From the NCBI GenBank assembly GCA_943328915.2, contig CALQBW020000002.1, forward strand, positions 1 to 64,000: a DNA stretch of 64,000 nucleotides, given 5' to 3'. Below the pieces are notes generated by a model that worked only from the letters and a program-made list of their open reading frames with translations, was not told where the DNA came from and made no database searches. Source of the DNA: Singulisphaera sp. GP187. Its GTDB lineage: Bacteria; Chloroflexota; Chloroflexia; Chloroflexales; Roseiflexaceae. The translations under genes and the position numbers were made by a program. Below, one piece after another: positions 50,695 to 57,862 of this stretch. Every line of letters starts with the position of its first letter. Within the stretch, counting starts at the first letter, position 1.

Positions 50695-50766
50695 ATGTCT
50701 TTCTCTGTGTGGGTGTAATCCGCCAGGTAAGCTCTTCTGATGGTTGATTATAAAACAATATTCCAT

Positions 50767-51535
50767 TAACTAATGTATACAAGCATCCCAAAGGGAATTT
50801 CGGACCGATGATTGGCGGCGCATCAATATTCCTGGCAAATCAGAGAAATGAAGGGAGATAGTGGTTTGGGAATATGAAAACAATGAGTGGTGCTGGCGTT
50901 CTTAAGTCATGCATATGAGCGCAAGATGACCTGTTGACTTGCAAAATCGAAACGTCGTAAATAGTAAATCCAACAACCAGATTGAATGATTTCCTGAAAT
51001 TGAATCAACTCGCCTGCCAACTGCGAGGCTGTAATGGGCAGTACCGAGGATTTTAAGTTGCTTTTTTTGACGCAGTGGGTTAAATGTTTGATGTGATTGT
51101 AGGGGCTTTTCAGGTCTCCTCCCAAGAATTACACGATACGACGATATCACGCAGGGAAGATTATTTCAGCCCGACAGTTACGAGTCACATGCGTACAATC
51201 TTCTGCGGAACAAATAGTTGCCGGATTTGGTCAGATTAGTAGCATCACATTTGGCAAAGAAATGCATAGTGGTGCGTTTGAATGTGTTATAAATCAACCA
51301 ATGCACATCACGTAATTGTGGGTCAGGCGCCGCACTGACCAAATAGGTACTGAATACCTGCCAAAAAATGTGTCACTAATGCAAGGGATGTTTTGTCAAT
51401 AATGTAGCATGCTGGATTGGGATTGCTGATCCAGCAAATACCGCTATTTTCATGTGAAGTACGATAGAATGTGCTGCTGATAATTTAATCAAGGTGGTTA
51501 CGTCTGGTGTTTCCGTTTCGACACAGGAGGGCAAA
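50767..51535. other. Long intergenic region with decayed coding sequence
   Basis: About 770 bases between the LysE gene and apbE. No intact gene is visible. Several short minus-strand frames (near 50902-51150 and 51178-51372) have protein-like composition but different phases and no starts, as if one gene had decayed. The apbE ribosome site (ACAGGAGGGCAA) is at its end. Confidence 0.5.
51178..51372 (-). pseudogene. Unrecognised gene remnant
   Basis: A 64-codon minus-strand frame bounded by stops, without an upstream start codon. It encodes protein-like text such as DPQLRDVHWLIYNTFKRTT and FFAKCDATNLTKSGNYLFRR. I do not recognise the family. The next minus-strand segment toward 50902 is in another phase, which fits a decayed gene. 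Confidence 0.35.
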
Positions 51536-52447
51536 ATGACGAAACCGTTTGTGCATGAATGGCGCGCATTGGGGGTGTTGTGTCGCGTGGTGAGTAATTC
51601 ACCACTCGACACGGTTGCGATCGAATCTCAGGTTGAGGAGTGGGAGCAGGCCTTGAGCCGCTTCCGTCCCAATAGTGATTTATCGCGACTCAACCGTCAA
51701 CGTCACGCGCATGTATCGGCGCCACTCCAGCAGGTATTGCTGGCTGCGCTTGAAGTGGCGCAATGGAGCCAAGGCTTGGTTGTTCCTAGTTTGGGCCAAC
51801 ATATCGCCGATATCGGCTATGATCAAAATTTTGCGACGGTGGCACCCGTTACGGCTGCCGTTGTTGATGCAGCTATCGTCCCTGATTGGCGGAGGATTGT
51901 GGTGCGTGGCCGAGATGTCACAATCCCACCCCAAATGAAACTTGATTTGGCTGGTGTGGCCAAAGGCTGGATCGCAGAGCAATTAGTGGCGCTATTCACC
52001 CCACCGGGCGGATCGTTACTGGCGCAAATCGGTGGTGATGTGTCTGTATCGGCACCGAGTGATACGGTCCCGTGGTGCATCGCCGTCGATCACCCATTGC
52101 AATCAACGTCGTGTGGGAATATAGCCCTTTTTGAGGGGACAGTGGCGACATCAAGTACCTACGAACGGCGCTGGCAACGGGCTGGTCAAACCATCCATCA
52201 CATCATCGATCCACGCAGTGGCATGCCCGCCCAAAGCGATGTGCTGACGGCTTCGGTGATTGCCACGCAGGCGATTTATGCCGAGGCTGCCGCCAAAATT
52301 ATCGTGGTGCTGGGGTCTGCGGCGGGACTCGCATGGGTGAGCCGCTATGCCTTACCAGCCCTAATCATTGATCAGTCAGGGAATGTGCGTACCAACGATG
52401 CGTGGGTGCCGTTTATCTGGTCAGAAGGAACTACAACTGATGTCTGA
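51536..52447 (+). CDS. apbE: FAD:protein FMN transferase
   Basis: Attaches FMN covalently to threonine or serine of target flavoproteins outside the cytoplasm. The 303-residue protein has ApbE segments: EQALSRFRPNSDLSRLN, MKLDLAGVAKGWIAEQL, LLAQIGGDVSVS, and HHIIDPRSGMPAQSDVLTAS, the family's H-x-x-D-P-R-S-G signature. It lacks an obvious signal peptide or lipobox, so it may act inside or be a cytoplasmic form. ACAGGAGGG precedes the ATG. The stop overlaps the next start by 8 bases, tying it to the ferric-reductase-like protein; no FMN-binding-domain protein with the usual acceptor motif is in the locus. Confidence 0.9.
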   Translation: MTKPFVHEWRALGVLCRVVSNSPLDTVAIESQVEEWEQALSRFRPNSDLSRLNRQRHAHVSAPLQQVLLAALEVAQWSQGLVVPSLGQHIADIGYDQNFATVAPVTAAVVDAAIVPDWRRIVVRGRDVTIPPQMKLDLAGVAKGWIAEQLVALFTPPGGSLLAQIGGDVSVSAPSDTVPWCIAVDHPLQSTSCGNIALFEGTVATSSTYERRWQRAGQTIHHIIDPRSGMPAQSDVLTASVIATQAIYAEAAAKIIVVLGSAAGLAWVSRYALPALIIDQSGNVRTNDAWVPFIWSEGTTTDV

Positions 52448-53231
52448 TTCATTACCCCCACCACCTGATACGGCCCCACTTGGCTCGCCAGCGCCACGAC
52501 GGATGCCCGCCAAAGAACACCGCAGTGACGCCGAAACCGCGGCCTTGATGGATGCTATGCTGGCTCGTTATTCGTGGCGTAACGTGTTGGTATCGTTAAT
52601 TCTCGGGGTTGCTGTAGGCGCCGCATTCGCTTGGTTTATTATTCCTACCTACTTACCTGGCATGGTCCATAGTGCTGTCGGGAATGCCCCCAAAGCCTAT
52701 TGGTATCTGTCCCGTTCGGCGGGGGTGATTGCGCTTGTACTGGTATGGCTGAGTGTGGTCTGGGGCTTGTTGTTGACCACTATCGGCAAAATGATTGGCC
52801 AAGTAGCGTCGATAGTCGATATTCACCGTCATTTATCGTGGTTGACGGTCATATTTGTGTTGGTGCATATTTTTGTGTTGCTCGGGGATAAATACATCAC
52901 CTACACCGTGGTCACGCTGTTTATTCCCTATGCGGATACGGCATATCGGCCATTTGCGGTGGCATTGGGACAGATTGGCTATTATGCGGTGGTACTGGTC
53001 TCGGTCAGCTTTTGGGTGCGACGGTTGATTGGCCAAAAATCATGGCGGGTGCTCCATTATCTGAGCTTTGTGGCCTATGGATTAGTGGTCACCCATGCCT
53101 ATTTGGCTGGTACCGATAGCCCAACGCTTTATTGGGGCTATGTCGTAAGTGTGATTGTGGTGCTGTTTTTGACGATGTTGCGGATTATTACAGCACTAAC
53201 GACCAAAACCGCCACAACGGTCGATGCGTAG
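52440..53231 (+). CDS. Ferric-reductase-like haem membrane protein (1)
   Basis: 263 residues: a polar 40-residue N-terminus rich in proline, a first helix (VLVSLILGVAVGAAFAWFII), then a ferric-reductase-like core of about five helices. Candidate haem histidines are in DIHRHLSWLTVIFVLVHIF and WRVLHYLSFVAYGLVVTHAY, placed on two helices as in FRE/NOX/YedZ proteins. It should carry electrons across the membrane through two haems. It lacks the cytoplasmic FAD/NADPH domain of eukaryotic reductases. AGAAGGAA is upstream of the ATG inside apbE. A paralogue lies at 55833. Confidence 0.85.
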   Translation: MSDSLPPPPDTAPLGSPAPRRMPAKEHRSDAETAALMDAMLARYSWRNVLVSLILGVAVGAAFAWFIIPTYLPGMVHSAVGNAPKAYWYLSRSAGVIALVLVWLSVVWGLLLTTIGKMIGQVASIVDIHRHLSWLTVIFVLVHIFVLLGDKYITYTVVTLFIPYADTAYRPFAVALGQIGYYAVVLVSVSFWVRRLIGQKSWRVLHYLSFVAYGLVVTHAYLAGTDSPTLYWGYVVSVIVVLFLTMLRIITALTTKTATTVDA

Positions 53232-53318
53232 GTGGTGTTGTGTGTTGTAGAGGGAACTTTTGGCCGCAGCCTACCGTCATTTTTGCAACAAGGAAATGCA
53301 ATTTGAAGGATGACTGTT

Positions 53319-53900
53319 ATGCGGATGAAGCTATTGGTTGCGGCAAGTGCAACAGTGTTTATTGCAGTGATTATTAGCGCAGTGGTAACCCAATTGACGT
53401 TGACGTCGGCCAGTGCGGCTATTCAGCCAGCGTTTGCCACCGAACAAACCCCTGTCCCGGTGGTTGATGAACTGGCCAAACAACGCGAAGCAACCTACCA
53501 AGCGCGCTTAGCCGAAGCCAATCAAACGATTGCCCAATCACAAACCGAATTAGAAAAAGCCCAAGCGACCGCCGCTGCTCTCGCCCAACAATATAACGAC
53601 GTTGTTACCGCCCCACCAGCAGCGACTGCAATCCCCGCCCGGATTGTGCCAGCTGCGGCACTTGCGATTGCCCAGAGCCTTGACCCCAATGTGCGCTTGC
53701 TCCAAGATGTGACTATTGTGCCCTATCAAAACGTCGATGCCTATGAGTTTGTGTTTGATCGTGGGACCGTCTATTTGGCAGCGACCAATGGTGATGTACT
53801 GTCAAACACTATTGTGCCGCCTACCGTAGGGAACGAATCCAATCGTCCTCCGCGCGGTGAACGCCGCGACCGCCCCCGCCATAACCGCAACCAACCATAA
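53319..53900 (+). CDS. Exported coiled-coil protein with PepSY-like C-terminus (1)
   Basis: 193 residues. A signal-anchor MRMKLLVAASATVFIAVI begins it, followed by a predicted coiled coil, REATYQARLAEANQTIAQSQ and onward (about 50-90), a proline-rich hinge, and a C-terminal domain AIAQSLDPNVRLLQDVTIV...DAYEFVFDRGTVYLAA reminiscent of PepSY repeats. The end is very basic (RPPRGERRDRPRHNRNQP). I do not recognise the full protein. The start at 53319 has AAGGA 8 bases upstream. Its paralogue at 54408 shares the order of parts but ends acidic. Confidence 0.75.
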   Translation: MRMKLLVAASATVFIAVIISAVVTQLTLTSASAAIQPAFATEQTPVPVVDELAKQREATYQARLAEANQTIAQSQTELEKAQATAAALAQQYNDVVTAPPAATAIPARIVPAAALAIAQSLDPNVRLLQDVTIVPYQNVDAYEFVFDRGTVYLAATNGDVLSNTIVPPTVGNESNRPPRGERRDRPRHNRNQP

Positions 53901-53924
53901 TTGATTGATAGGGAGCAAACGGTC

Positions 53925-54341
53925 ATGAGCAATGGTGGTATTACCCAAAAACTCAACGGAGTATCCAGTGATATGTCAGCAATTAGCGTGAGCAATGAAC
54001 GGAAAGTGGCTAAACCGGTCGCAGCTTATGCCGATGTTGATCGCAAATTTGTCCAAAAAGTGAAAGCCGAAGTCGAACAACAGGAACGCCAATTAGCCCG
54101 TGTCATTGTGACCGCCATTGCGACCTGTTGCTTGATTGTGGCCTGGATGGTTATGGCGCGGACTGGTGCTCAAGAATCACCGTTTGTGCGGGTACCGCCC
54201 GCCCCCGTGGTGCAGGTGGTGGCACAATCCCCAACTCAACCAGAAATTATTGCGACGGTGCATGTGGTAACCCAACCGGTACCCGTACCAACGTTAGTCC
54301 CCGAACAAGCGCGGCAACGGCGCCGTCCTGCCCGCCCATAA
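53925..54341 (+). CDS. Small anchored protein with external Pro/Val-rich tail (1)
   Basis: 138 residues. A cytoplasmic N-terminal segment contains DRKFVQKVKAEVEQQERQLA, followed by one membrane helix VIVTAIATCCLIVAWMVMA and an outside tail rich in P, V, T and Q that ends QRRRPARP. Topology suggests N-in, C-out. AGGGAG precedes the ATG at 53925. The paralogue at 55156 keeps the RKxVQKVKA motif and the helix. Function unknown; the motif may bind a partner in the cytoplasm. Confidence 0.7.
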   Translation: MSNGGITQKLNGVSSDMSAISVSNERKVAKPVAAYADVDRKFVQKVKAEVEQQERQLARVIVTAIATCCLIVAWMVMARTGAQESPFVRVPPAPVVQVVAQSPTQPEIIATVHVVTQPVPVPTLVPEQARQRRRPARP

Positions 54342-54407
54342 GTTGTGTGATAGTGAAGTGTTTGGGTGTTATGAGTGTTGATTATGTATTTTAAGTAGGG
54401 ATTATAC

Positions 54408-55163
54408 ATGCGTTTGAAATTATTGTTCGCAGCGTGTGCAACGGTGTTCGTGAGTGTGTTGGTTGGTGCACTGATAAGTCAAGTAATGACACCTAATACC
54501 ACCACGGCCAAAGCCGCACCCCAGCCTGCCGCTGCCACGGCAACGACTGAAATTAGTGTGCCTCAGACGGAGGTAGCTACCCCACGTCCCGTGGTCGATG
54601 CCCAAATCGTCCAACAACGCGAAGCCACCTACCAAGCCCGACTCGCCGAAGCCAATCAGATTATTGCCCAATCAGCAGCAGATCTCGCCAAAGCGCGTGC
54701 CGAAGAAGCTGCGTTGACCAAAAAATACAATACGTTGGTCGGGGTCATGAGCCAGCCAACTAGCATACCGCTCGTACCGACTGCGATTCCTGTGCCCGCA
54801 ACGGCGGTGGTGATTGTGCCTACGGCAACACCAGATAAAATACCACTTGATGTGGCGGTAGCAAATGCCCAATCTATTGACCCGAATGCTAAATTATTAC
54901 AACAACCAGATTTGGTTTTGTACGAAAATGTCGTCGCCTATGAATTTGTGTTTGATACAGGCACAATCTATATGGCCGCCAAGGACGGTACGGTAGTGTA
55001 TAACGGGATTGCAGTGAATGTAGCGGCAGCAGTGGCATCGCGTAATGCTCCGCCTCCGCGCAATGACACCGTACCACCACCAAATAATACGGTGCCCACG
55101 CCTGGCCATCATCATGACGATGATGATCACCATGAGGATGATGACGGTGGCGATGATGACTAA
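54408..55163 (+). CDS. Exported coiled-coil protein with PepSY-like C-terminus (2)
   Basis: 251 residues, a paralogue of the protein at 53319. It repeats the signal-anchor MRLKLLFAACATVF, the coiled coil QQREATYQARLAEANQIIAQ, and DPNAKLLQQPDLVLYENV with AYEFVFDTGTIYMAAKDG. It differs in a longer Pro/Thr/Val hinge and a C-terminal tail of about 20 residues made almost only of H, D, E and G (HHHDDDDHHEDDDGGDDD). Such a tail could bind metal cations; in copy 1 the tail is basic. GTAGGGATTATAC precedes the ATG. The end overlaps the next gene by 8 bases. Confidence 0.75.
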   Translation: MRLKLLFAACATVFVSVLVGALISQVMTPNTTTAKAAPQPAAATATTEISVPQTEVATPRPVVDAQIVQQREATYQARLAEANQIIAQSAADLAKARAEEAALTKKYNTLVGVMSQPTSIPLVPTAIPVPATAVVIVPTATPDKIPLDVAVANAQSIDPNAKLLQQPDLVLYENVVAYEFVFDTGTIYMAAKDGTVVYNGIAVNVAAAVASRNAPPPRNDTVPPPNNTVPTPGHHHDDDDHHEDDDGGDDD

Positions 55164-55713
55164 CGGACCAATTGACCGTAAATTAGTTCAAAAAGTCAAA
55201 GCGCAAATGGAACAGAATGAACGTTTGATGGGGCGGACTATTTTTACGGCGTTAGCGACGTGTGGAACTATTGTCGGGTGGATGTTGTTGGCAAACCCAA
55301 CCCCCCTTGCCCCACAAACTGCAGTGGCAGCAGAGGGTCCTACCGCTATGCCGATAGACATCCCACCAACGGTTGTACTCCAACCCACCGCAGCGTTGGT
55401 TGCGATTGATTATGCCCCGATTCCGACGCTCCAAGCGCTGCCAACGCAACCGCCTCTTCCAACATTGCGGGTCTACAAAAAACCAGAAGTTGCTGCGGTG
55501 AATTCAGCCTCAGTTCAATCTAGTGACCAGCCTGTGCCGACAACTGCCCCCGATGCGGCCCCGCCAGTGGCAGTTGATGCGATGCCCGCATTGCGCATCA
55601 TCGTGCAACCCACCGTTGCGCCAGTAGTGGCGGCGCCGCGGCCGGGCAAACCGGCTCCTGCACCAAATCCCGGCGGTGGTGGTGGCGGTGGGTCCACGGG
55701 AGGGTCAAAATAA
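55156..55713 (+). CDS. Small anchored protein with external Pro/Ala-rich tail (2)
   Basis: 185 residues, a paralogue of the protein at 53925: RKLVQKVKAQMEQNERLMGR, then a helix TIFTALATCGTIVGWMLLA, then a long outside tail of P, A, T and V ending in a glycine run (GGGGGGGSTGGSK). The ATG at 55156 lies inside the end of the preceding gene, with GGTGG just upstream; an ATG one codon earlier is also possible. The longer open frame starting upstream runs through the preceding gene and is not used. A terminator follows. Confidence 0.7.
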   Translation: MTNGPIDRKLVQKVKAQMEQNERLMGRTIFTALATCGTIVGWMLLANPTPLAPQTAVAAEGPTAMPIDIPPTVVLQPTAALVAIDYAPIPTLQALPTQPPLPTLRVYKKPEVAAVNSASVQSSDQPVPTTAPDAAPPVAVDAMPALRIIVQPTVAPVVAAPRPGKPAPAPNPGGGGGGGSTGGSK

Positions 55714-55744
55714 CCGGTTATTTCTTGGAATATAAAGTCAAACA

Positions 55745-55783
55745 AAGTGGAGATTTGCATTTTGTGCAAACCTCCACTTTTTT
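55745..55783 (+). terminator. Terminator after the duplicated secreted/anchored genes
   Basis: AAGTGGAG (55745-55752) pairs with CTCCACTT (55772-55779), continued by TTTGCA/TGCAAA, then a T run. It divides the five-gene operon starting at apbE from the second ferric-reductase-like gene. Confidence 0.88.
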
Positions 55784-55832
55784 CGGGTAAACTATGGGAA
55801 TAATGAATGTTACGCTGGTAATGGAGTTACAC

Positions 55833-56564
55833 ATGTCCCAACAACCGACCAAACCTCCACGAGTGGTGGAAGATCCGGTATTGGTACTTGATGCGTTGTT
55901 GGATCGTTTTTCGTGGAGTAATGTGCTTGGTGCAGTGTTCCTTGGTTTGGTCGTAGGTCTAGTCGTGGCATGGCTCATCATCCCGACGTATGTGTCGGGG
56001 ATTGTGGCGAGTTTCCAAGGCGAGAATCCTACCGCTTATTGGTATATTTGCCGGGCTGCGGGGATTGTCGCATATGCCTTAATTTGGTTGAGCATCGTAT
56101 GGGGGTTATTGTTGACCACCAACATAGGCAAACAACTTGGAATGGTCGCACCGATTGTCGATTTGCACCGTCACATTTCTTGGTTGGCAGTGGTATTTAG
56201 CATGACTCATATGTTGGTGTTGTTACTTGATACCGTGGTGCCATATACTTTTATTTTGGTATTTGTACCGTTTAACCCTGATGCCTATCGACCGGTAGCC
56301 GCCACCCTCGGTCAAATTGGTTGTTATTTGTTGATTTTTGTGACGGTGAGTTTTTGGGTGAGGAGTTGGACCGGCCAAAAAGTCTGGCGTGCTATTCATT
56401 ACCTCAGTTTCGCCGCCTATGTGATGGTGATGGTGCATGCGATTATGGCCGGTAGCGATGCATTGGCCTTGTATTGGGTATATGTGGGGAGTGCCGTGGT
56501 CGTCGTGTTTTTGGTCATGTTGCGGATTATCGATGCCATAAATGAACGTCGTCAAGTCGCCTAA
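55833..56564 (+). CDS. Ferric-reductase-like haem membrane protein (2)
   Basis: 243 residues, a paralogue of the protein at 52440 with the same six-helix plan. Shared segments are IWLSIVWGLLLTTNIGKQLG, DLHRHISWLAVVFSMTHM (candidate haem histidines) and WRAIHYLSFAAYVMVMVHAI (second histidine pair). It lacks the proline-rich N-terminus of copy 1 and starts MSQQPTKPPRV; TGGAG precedes the ATG at 55833. It follows its own terminator-bounded unit and may be transcribed separately. Probably the same electron-transfer role with a different partner. Confidence 0.85.
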   Translation: MSQQPTKPPRVVEDPVLVLDALLDRFSWSNVLGAVFLGLVVGLVVAWLIIPTYVSGIVASFQGENPTAYWYICRAAGIVAYALIWLSIVWGLLLTTNIGKQLGMVAPIVDLHRHISWLAVVFSMTHMLVLLLDTVVPYTFILVFVPFNPDAYRPVAATLGQIGCYLLIFVTVSFWVRSWTGQKVWRAIHYLSFAAYVMVMVHAIMAGSDALALYWVYVGSAVVVVFLVMLRIIDAINERRQVA

Positions 56565-56584: not shown

Positions 56585-56617
56585 CCGTCCGATTCATTAT
56601 GAATCGGATGGTTTTTT
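56585..56617 (+). terminator. Terminator after ferric-reductase-like gene 2
   Basis: TCCGATTCA and TGAATCGGA pair around TTA, extended by CC/GG, then six T. The left side codes for the end of the minus-strand photolyase N-domain gene. Confidence 0.87.
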
Positions 56618-57037
56618 GTGTGGCTGTGGTATCAATTGTGATTTGGCGACGGCCCAATAGCGCGAAAATCGTTTGATATCCGTGTTGATTGGGATAGCGA
56701 CAAAGGCTGGTTCTGCCAAAACCAGTACCTTATAGTGCTGCCGTAGTTGTCCACAAATAGCGGCGAAGCGGGGGGCTGGTGAGGCCGTGGTCACAATCGT
56801 ATCTGCCTGGTGGTGTTGGGCAAATTGCGTAATTTGGGTGACCACATCACCGCGAAAAATGGTGACGGGGAGCTCAAGCAGCGCCTCGTACATAAACACG
56901 ATGCGCTTCAGGCTGATGTGGTATTGCATGAGTAATGCATCGTCCCACACAAAAATCGCAGGTGCGTCGGGATGTACGAGCAACGCAGGATTGGTGGAGC
57001 GTAGGCAATCGCCGTGAATCCAGAGTATTGGTGGCAT
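56597..57037 (-). CDS. Stand-alone photolyase N-terminal (Rossmann) domain
   Basis: 146 residues resembling the alpha/beta N-terminal domain of DNA photolyases: PPILWIHGDCLRSTNPALL, PAIFVWDDALLMQYHISLKR, FMYEALLELPVTIFRGDVV, and near the end the RFSRYWAVAKS linker motif. In a normal photolyase it precedes the FAD domain in one chain and holds the antenna pigment. Here it is the last gene of the unit and is separate, 15 bases after the FAD-domain gene. Its stop overlaps the terminator of the convergent gene. The two proteins may assemble as a split photolyase, or this one may have another role. Confidence 0.7.
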   Translation of the reverse strand: MPPILWIHGDCLRSTNPALLVHPDAPAIFVWDDALLMQYHISLKRIVFMYEALLELPVTIFRGDVVTQITQFAQHHQADTIVTTASPAPRFAAICGQLRQHYKVLVLAEPAFVAIPINTDIKRFSRYWAVAKSQLIPQPHKKPSDS

Positions 57038-57052
57038 TGCGATTCCTTGTCA

Positions 57053-57862
57053 TTATTGCGGTGGCATATGCGGAAAAAGGCGTTGACCTAGGGCTTCGTA
57101 TGATGCATCGAGGGGACAATTCCGCGCCAGCGGGCAGTCACCGCAAAAGCGGTGGTTGGTATAACGGGCGAGATTTTCTTTGTTGAAAAAATAAGGCTTG
57201 TGGCTAAACGTGCTTGCCACCCATTGCCACGACAAATTATTGCTGGCGGGGTCGCCGTCGAGTAGGTGTTGCAAAAACCAGCGCGCCCCCGCTTGCCAGG
57301 CCACATGGCGCCAATGGACGAGATAGGCGGCAAGCCACATTCGGGCATGATTGTGCAGATACCCCGTGGTGATTAATTCAGCGACAAATGCATCCATGCA
57401 GGCTAGCGATGTGTGCCCGGTGCGGATATCGTCGGGGAGCTCATCGATGTAGTGTGTGGCGGTATAGCCGTTTTTGTAGGGTTCACGATCGTGCCAGATA
57501 CCGTCACCAATCTGGGTATAGACGCGTTGCCAGTAGTCACGCCATGCTAGCTCGGTAATGAGTTTTTCGGCTTCATGGGGGTAGTTTACGCGTTGCCATA
57601 CGGCGTCACGTACTTCGGCGAGGCTGAGGACCCCGTGCCTGATATAGGCACTGAGGCGGGTCACGGCGCCATTGAGGGCATTACGAGTGGTGGTGTAGCG
57701 GGCTGGGTCGATGGTGGCGAGTAGGCGTAATGCCGCTTGGCGTCCGCCAATCGTGGGGGCGACGGCGGTGTCTTCACCCACGATGTTTGCGAATTCGTGG
57801 TGCAGGTAGGCGATTAATTCATCGTGTGAGGCAAAGTCGCGTTGGAGTGGGGTGGGTGTCAT
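57053..57862 (-). CDS. Stand-alone photolyase FAD-binding domain
   Basis: 269 residues matching only the C-terminal helical domain of the photolyase/cryptochrome family. Marks are GRQAALRLLATID, LSAYIRHGVLSLAEVRD, ELAWRDYWQRVYTQIG, GYLHNHARMWLAAYLVHWR and DGDPASNNLSWQWVASTFS, which hold FAD and the substrate. A cluster of cysteines (CGDCPLARNCP) near the end suggests metal binding. The Rossmann domain is missing here and encoded separately downstream. The ATG overlaps the stop of the DUF2256 gene (ATGA). Probably light-dependent DNA repair or light sensing. Confidence 0.88.
   Translation of the reverse strand: MTPTPLQRDFASHDELIAYLHHEFANIVGEDTAVAPTIGGRQAALRLLATIDPARYTTTRNALNGAVTRLSAYIRHGVLSLAEVRDAVWQRVNYPHEAEKLITELAWRDYWQRVYTQIGDGIWHDREPYKNGYTATHYIDELPDDIRTGHTSLACMDAFVAELITTGYLHNHARMWLAAYLVHWRHVAWQAGARWFLQHLLDGDPASNNLSWQWVASTFSHKPYFFNKENLARYTNHRFCGDCPLARNCPLDASYEALGQRLFPHMPPQ

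Follow-up and report, generated by a model that had tools for sequence, protein, structure and literature searches.

An apbE gene set with ferric-reductase-like haem proteins in the Chloroflexota and a conserved C-terminal serine tail on its membrane-anchored proteins

Gene layout and encoded proteins

The DNA analysed here (contig CALQBW020000002.1 of assembly GCA_943328915.2, positions 1 to 64,000, hereafter the window) derives from Singulisphaera sp. GP187, placed by GTDB in the family Roseiflexaceae of the Chloroflexales, and harbours a locus headed by apbE, the gene of a flavin adenine dinucleotide (FAD):protein flavin mononucleotide (FMN) transferase. Six genes follow one another in the same direction, encoding ApbE, a ferric-reductase-like haem protein (FRD1), a signal-anchored PepSY-like protein (SEC1), a membrane-anchored low-complexity protein (ANC1) and second copies of the latter two (SEC2 and ANC2); a hairpin and the gene of a second haem protein (FRD2) complete the locus (Table 1). 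The genes for SEC, ANC, ApbE and FRD form one system, and most ANC proteins end in a conserved serine-containing tail, a point absent from a preliminary description of this DNA made from the sequence alone. Every gene listed in that description was present, in the order given; the anchored proteins were also there, although they had been taken as featureless anchors and their conserved C-terminus overlooked. The start of FRD1 overlaps the stop of apbE by 8 nt, ANC2 likewise overlaps SEC2 by 8 nt, and the hairpin between ANC2 and FRD2 comprises 16 pairs with T runs on either side; its plus strand reads CCACTTTTTT, the hairpin program having put it on the minus strand.

The ApbE protein exceeds the family cut-off by a wide margin (168.9 bits versus 25.6), and its nearest solved structure chains are FMN transferases. 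The catalytic residues Ser206 and His222 and the acidic metal ligand Glu/Asp250 are present in 58/58 relatives, Asp137 and Lys143 are kept together with these two catalytic residues in 57-58 of 58, and Phe43 is invariant. No signal peptide was detected in the relatives inspected, in which the domain begins at the first residues and leaves no room for one; cytosolic ApbEs are already known, a signal peptide or lipid anchor being usual, not universal (PMC12052999). A search against NCBIfam revealed nothing further than ApbE. The same genome has, on a short contig (locus L130, G000:C211:1-3953), a third FRD gene accompanied by an apbE of its own; the frame of this FRD is disrupted by an apparent frameshift but intact in L133, and no SEC or ANC gene was seen upstream.

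FRD1 and FRD2 share 52-54% identity and score slightly under the cut-off of the Ferric_reduct family PF01794 (28 bits), FRD2 reaching 23.4 bits. Both retain four histidines (His129, His143, His206 and His219 in FRD1) that are invariant among 64 relatives. The AlphaFold model of FRD1 (pLDDT 88) is a helical membrane fold, the best matches of which are STEAP2, SpNOX and STEAP1, at a TM score of about 0.45 and none with E <0.001. The earlier reading of these proteins as ferric-reductase-like haem proteins is borne out by the four invariant histidines, with STEAP and NOX folds ranking first but none as a statistically strong match.

SEC1 and SEC2 are themselves below Pfam detection, while relatives exceed the cut-off of the PepSY family PF03413 with E values of 1e-14 to 1e-22, and the AlphaFold model combines a signal anchor and a 51-residue helix with an alpha/beta domain of PepSY size and a tail that is disordered, in agreement with the PepSY-like character first proposed. 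The motifs ATYQARLAEAN and QKVKA, reported as common to the paralogues, are real. So is the divergence of the tails: the basic ones belong to SEC1 and ANC1, and the His/Asp-rich one to SEC2, of a type common among SECs, most of which end in stretches rich in Asp, Glu and His. ANC1 and ANC2 gave no meaningful match in the domain libraries searched. Proteins of their family begin with a basic N-terminus and a single membrane helix, at whose end a Gly-Trp is conserved; then come a variable, disordered linker of about 50-150 residues, in which Pro, Ala, Val or Gly abound, and the fixed C-terminal end, which is retained even where the linker has been freely swapped for glycine or proline runs.

Table 1. 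Features of the apbE locus in window coordinates
Feature	Position	Strand	Evidence
ApbE, FAD:protein FMN transferase, no signal peptide	51536..52447	+	PF02424 E 2e-49
FRD1, ferric-reductase/MsrQ-like membrane haem protein	52440..53231	+	PF01794 25.3 bits, invariant His
SEC1, signal-anchored coiled-coil and PepSY-like protein, basic tail	53319..53900	+	relatives match PF03413
ANC1, membrane-anchored low-complexity protein without serine tail, ends RRRPARP	53925..54341	+	
SEC2, signal anchor, coiled coil, PepSY-like domain and His/Asp-rich tail	54408..55163	+	
ANC2, N-in/C-out membrane-anchored Pro/Gly-rich arm	55156..55713	+	predicted topology
ANC2 C-terminal T-G-G-S-K codons, proposed flavinylation tail, penultimate Ser	55696..55710	+	conserved [ST]-x-[SG]-S across phylum
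Hairpin with T run, probable terminator ahead of FRD2	55744..55780	+	hairpin listing and sequence
FRD2, second ferric-reductase-like haem protein	55833..56564	+	
Stretch occupying the place of the sister-genome kinase, regulator, SEC0 and ANC0	50761..51533	.	sister-genome DNA comparison

Recurrence of the gene set in the Chloroflexota

The same gene order, for which a search of other Chloroflexota genomes had been suggested, recurs both within and outside the Chloroflexales. In Roseiflexaceae relatives, divergently oriented genes for a response regulator and a histidine kinase precede SEC, ANC, ApbE and FRD; this arrangement is also found in other families of the order, in many genera, and beyond the order in f13, f29, f32, f42, f66, f72 and f81, seven further families. 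The single-system claim of the preliminary description is upheld by the clustering of all four genes in the majority of the order's genera and in several further families, the secreted and anchored genes lying with the apbE and haem protein genes rather than mostly apart from them. ApbE and FRD co-occur: among 82 genomes of the order both are present in 59, neither in 18, FRD alone in 3 and ApbE alone in 2. Four of the five odd cases are contig-end fragments or truncated contigs, and the fifth is G026, a fragmented assembly. ANC adjoins FRD even where apbE is unlinked, as in genus g25, in which several tailed ANC-FRD pairs lie far from any apbE, and genome G058 lacks FMN_bind and has just one apbE alongside one SEC-ANC-FRD set.

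In the two sister genomes the locus reads SEC0-ANC0-ApbE-FRD1-SEC1-ANC1-SEC2-ANC2-FRD2 (L063 and L064), and the SEC/ANC duplication is a genus-level event. DNA similarity between the window and the sister genomes ends after a LysE-type gene at about 50760 and restarts at apbE, so that the kinase, the regulator, SEC0 and ANC0 have been lost or replaced in the window; about 15 nt from the end of ANC0 remain directly upstream of apbE.

A haem-binding cytochrome gene (PF14376) is often found beside related operons. The window itself encodes a c-type cytochrome (PF13442/PF00034, 49601-50059, minus strand) about 1.5 kb upstream, a possible electron partner whose position beside the operon's kinase end is kept in L068. 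The divergent sensor kinase bears a PepSY domain like that of SEC (PF03413, E 2e-10 in L160:1-1515; also in L148, L150 and others), which suggests that kinase and SEC sense the same thing. Some loci of the same genus (L067:1829-3940 and L065:3115-3951) encode extra secreted proteins, some of them diverged and SEC-like, in the interval that separates the SEC-ANC pair from the regulator genes, with no Pfam match among those tested.

Missing acceptors and the serine tail of the anchored proteins

The usual FMN acceptor, which the preliminary description had failed to see, is indeed lacking, FMN_bind not being found in this genome. The known substrates FMN_bind, DUF2271, DUF3570 and NqrB/RnfD were searched order-wide and proved absent or few. 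FMN_bind occurs in 8/82 genomes, each with an additional apbE, which adjoins FMN_bind in the loci read; DUF2271 and DUF3570 are found in 0/82; and the few NqrB/RnfD matches fall in the FMN_bind genomes, apart from a few weak ones. ApbE is thus present without FMN_bind in 53 of the 82 genomes, this one included, and the lone apbE genes of genus g25 have neither FMN_bind nor a substrate-like neighbour bearing [ST]GA[ST]. For comparison, among surveyed genomes that have genes for extracytosolic flavinylation, about 4% possess apbE but no recognised substrate (PMC8238504). A literature search returned no paper that treats Chloroflexus, an FMN transferase and a ferric reductase together. The SEC motif ATYQARLAEAN was rejected as a flavinylation site: most relatives have Ala or Asp in place of its Thr, and no invariant Ser/Thr site exists among the SEC relatives compared.

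The question of the ApbE substrate, left open earlier, now has a specific candidate, by inference the C-terminal serine of ANC. The tail follows the consensus [ST]-x-[SG]-S: it reads TRSSR in most of the order and TQSSR, TKSSR or SRSSR in some members, and TGGSK or KGSK in the genus of the window. A second locus type, in which apbE does not come after ANC, has SRSSN, SHSSN or TRSSN, and family f13 has TGSS, SSS or TKSS, some with KP or RP and some lacking it. A tail-blind finder, using helix, charge and linker composition only, returned 95 open reading frames (ORFs), of which 75 have [ST]-x-[SG]-S close to the C-terminus, corresponding to 75 of about 78 real ANCs. By inspection, the real ANCs among the 20 tail-less ORFs are only ANC1 (two orthologues) and the L110 protein, the others being SEC proteins, FRD ends and antisense frames. 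Overall, the tail is present in 139/8452 ORFs, the majority of which are the ANCs.

TRSSR is spelled by 35 codon strings among 49 copies, so that the peptide is what selection maintains. An origin of the tail as a ribosome-binding-site artefact, conceivable from the GGAGGG that precedes apbE in the genus of the window, was rejected: the TRSSR codons contain no such site, the spellings are too diverse, and the second locus type keeps S/T-R/H-S-S-N without apbE behind ANC. Compared with the ApbE motif [ST]-G-A-[ST], the tail has the same spacing and both Ser/Thr positions, its middle being G-G, G-S or R-S; T-G-G-S of the window's genus and T-G-S-S of f13 are one residue off.

Candidate role of the tail and alternative explanations

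The closest described counterparts are the MsrQ-like flavinylation-associated systems (Meheust et al., 2021; PMC8238504), in which a PF01794-type haem membrane protein is likewise encoded with apbE and transmembrane electron transfer has been proposed. The present set differs in lacking an FMN-binding-domain gene, here and in 74/82 genomes of the order, in an FRD without NAD-binding domain, in an ApbE without signal peptide, and in the additional SEC (PepSY) and ANC proteins; in MsrQ-like clusters the FMN-binding gene occupies the position that ANC has here (PMC8238504). A signal peptide or lipidation site was required of the genes retained in that survey, and the leaderless apbE genes would therefore probably have been dropped. 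PepSY domains of family PF03413 are shared with SEC relatives and the sensor kinase, whereas the three-helix membrane proteins of PepSY-like flavinylation systems (PF03929/PF16357) are not of the SEC kind. Known ApbE substrates, namely FMN_bind (NqrC/RnfG/PceC), DUF2271, DUF3570, flavinylated Flavodoxin_4 and FMN_red (PMC8238504, PMC11334425), have a Ser/Thr acceptor with [ST]-G-A-[ST]-like spacing, and the sites of FMN_red are on an unstructured C-terminal extension; ANC differs in having no flavin-binding fold and in carrying a relaxed motif at the very end of a disordered C-terminal arm. In engineered C-terminal flavin tags, too, a short terminal motif is enough for ApbE: according to a review, seven residues suffice, terminal tags perform best, loss of the Asp of the known motif D-x-x-[ST]-G-A-[ST] has little effect, and the changes of Gly to Ala and of Ala to Val leave about half of the modification (PMC12052999). 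Those tags are artificial, and no natural terminal tag like that of ANC was found in the literature search.

The gene set, its linkage, the histidines, the tail conservation, the topology prediction and the absence of known substrates were all computed. From them we infer tail flavinylation, the direction of electron flow and the final acceptor. The chances appear about even that the set is an MsrQ-like, ApbE-dependent transmembrane electron-transfer module with the tail serine of ANC as ApbE substrate and flavin carrier. A shade more tentatively, ANC may represent a new class of ApbE substrate without flavin-binding fold, with FMN on the C-terminal Ser of a disordered arm that swings as a carrier for the haem protein, which would explain the orphan apbE genes across the Chloroflexota. 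FRD would carry b-type haem through the membrane, and ApbE would move FMN from FAD to the Ser of [ST]-x-[SG]-S, turning ANC into a membrane-anchored flexible arm with flavin at its tip. Outside the membrane this arm might pick up electrons from the FRD haems and hand them to SEC, with its PepSY domain and acidic/His tail, or to a nearby metal or c-type cytochrome, and the PepSY sensor kinase and regulator could control the set in relatives. If so, there would be a substrate class without folded flavin domain, natural flavin tags, a wider rule for recognising ApbE targets and a defined transmembrane electron-transfer module for the Chloroflexota.

Several observations weigh against flavinylation of the ANC tail or the module built on it. 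The main difficulty is that ApbE is leaderless and so presumably cytosolic, while the ANC tail is predicted outside; FMN attachment would therefore have to precede export of the tail. The motif is relaxed, with no preceding Asp, Gly mostly replaced by Arg, and Ala by Ser or Gly. ANC1 and its L063 and L064 orthologues have no serine tail, and the ANCs of L110 (TRPSGR) and L080 (KPSKK) end off-consensus. FRD has its own invariant Ser/Thr, position 225 (Thr in FRD) being Ser or Thr in 64/64 relatives and Ser227 being kept in 58/64. In G026 a tailed ANC lies beside FRD and apbE is undetected, and the ApbE-FRD association (Fisher p = 4e-13, 82 related genomes) is uncorrected for kinship.

Some of these points feed the strongest rival, which is nevertheless rather unlikely: the electron-transfer module would be real, but the ANC tail would be an unflavinylated docking peptide for FRD, SEC or ApbE, and ApbE would modify another protein, for instance FRD itself at its invariant G-[ST]-D-S loop, or one encoded elsewhere. 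The missing Asp and mostly missing Gly agree with docking, as do the tighter tie of ANC to FRD than to apbE and the basic last residue of most ANCs; the f13 tails, however, keep the Ser/Thr core without a basic end. As to other targets, the conserved FRD residues are suggestive, but their loop does not fit [ST]-G-A-[ST], and SEC offers no invariant site. That the set serves metal reduction or sensing, with metal bound by the acidic/His tails of SEC and reduced by FRD and with ANC as mere spacer, is considered improbable. The Asp/Glu/His-rich tail ends, the PepSY-domain kinase divergent from many of the operons and the link of PepSY-type flavinylation clusters to iron reduction (PMC8238504) speak for it, but a spacer would not hold a fixed C-terminal tetrapeptide while its whole linker is replaced by Gly/Pro runs, and no metal transporter was found adjoining the set in the window. 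Of the metal-reduction idea in the preliminary description, plausible metal binding by the SEC tails stands, whereas metal as final acceptor is not established, the PF14376 gene pointing equally to a c-type cytochrome partner. Least probable of all is that ApbE hydrolyses FAD or otherwise supplies FMN, which FRD would receive in free form, much as Treponema Ftp splits FAD, with no protein flavinylated. Its leaderless form and the lack of a classical substrate would suit such a role, but the position of the Treponema hydrolase Asn (LSANR) is Phe in 58/58 relatives, bulky as the Tyr of transferases, and the catalytic Ser and His are invariant; a Treponema-type hydrolase is accordingly disfavoured.

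Beyond FRD2, on the minus strand of the window, a photolyase-like protein is apparently split into two ORFs in swapped order (56597-57862): the FAD-binding half comes first (57053-57862, PF03441), followed by a small ORF (56597-57037) that by eye resembles the N-terminal half. The arrangement is identical in the two sister genomes (L063:9581-10816 and L064:8040-9275). A gene for a DPRP cryptochrome/photolyase-related protein (PF04244, 58067-59584, minus strand) adjoins the split photolyase, so that two photolyase-type systems are adjacent.

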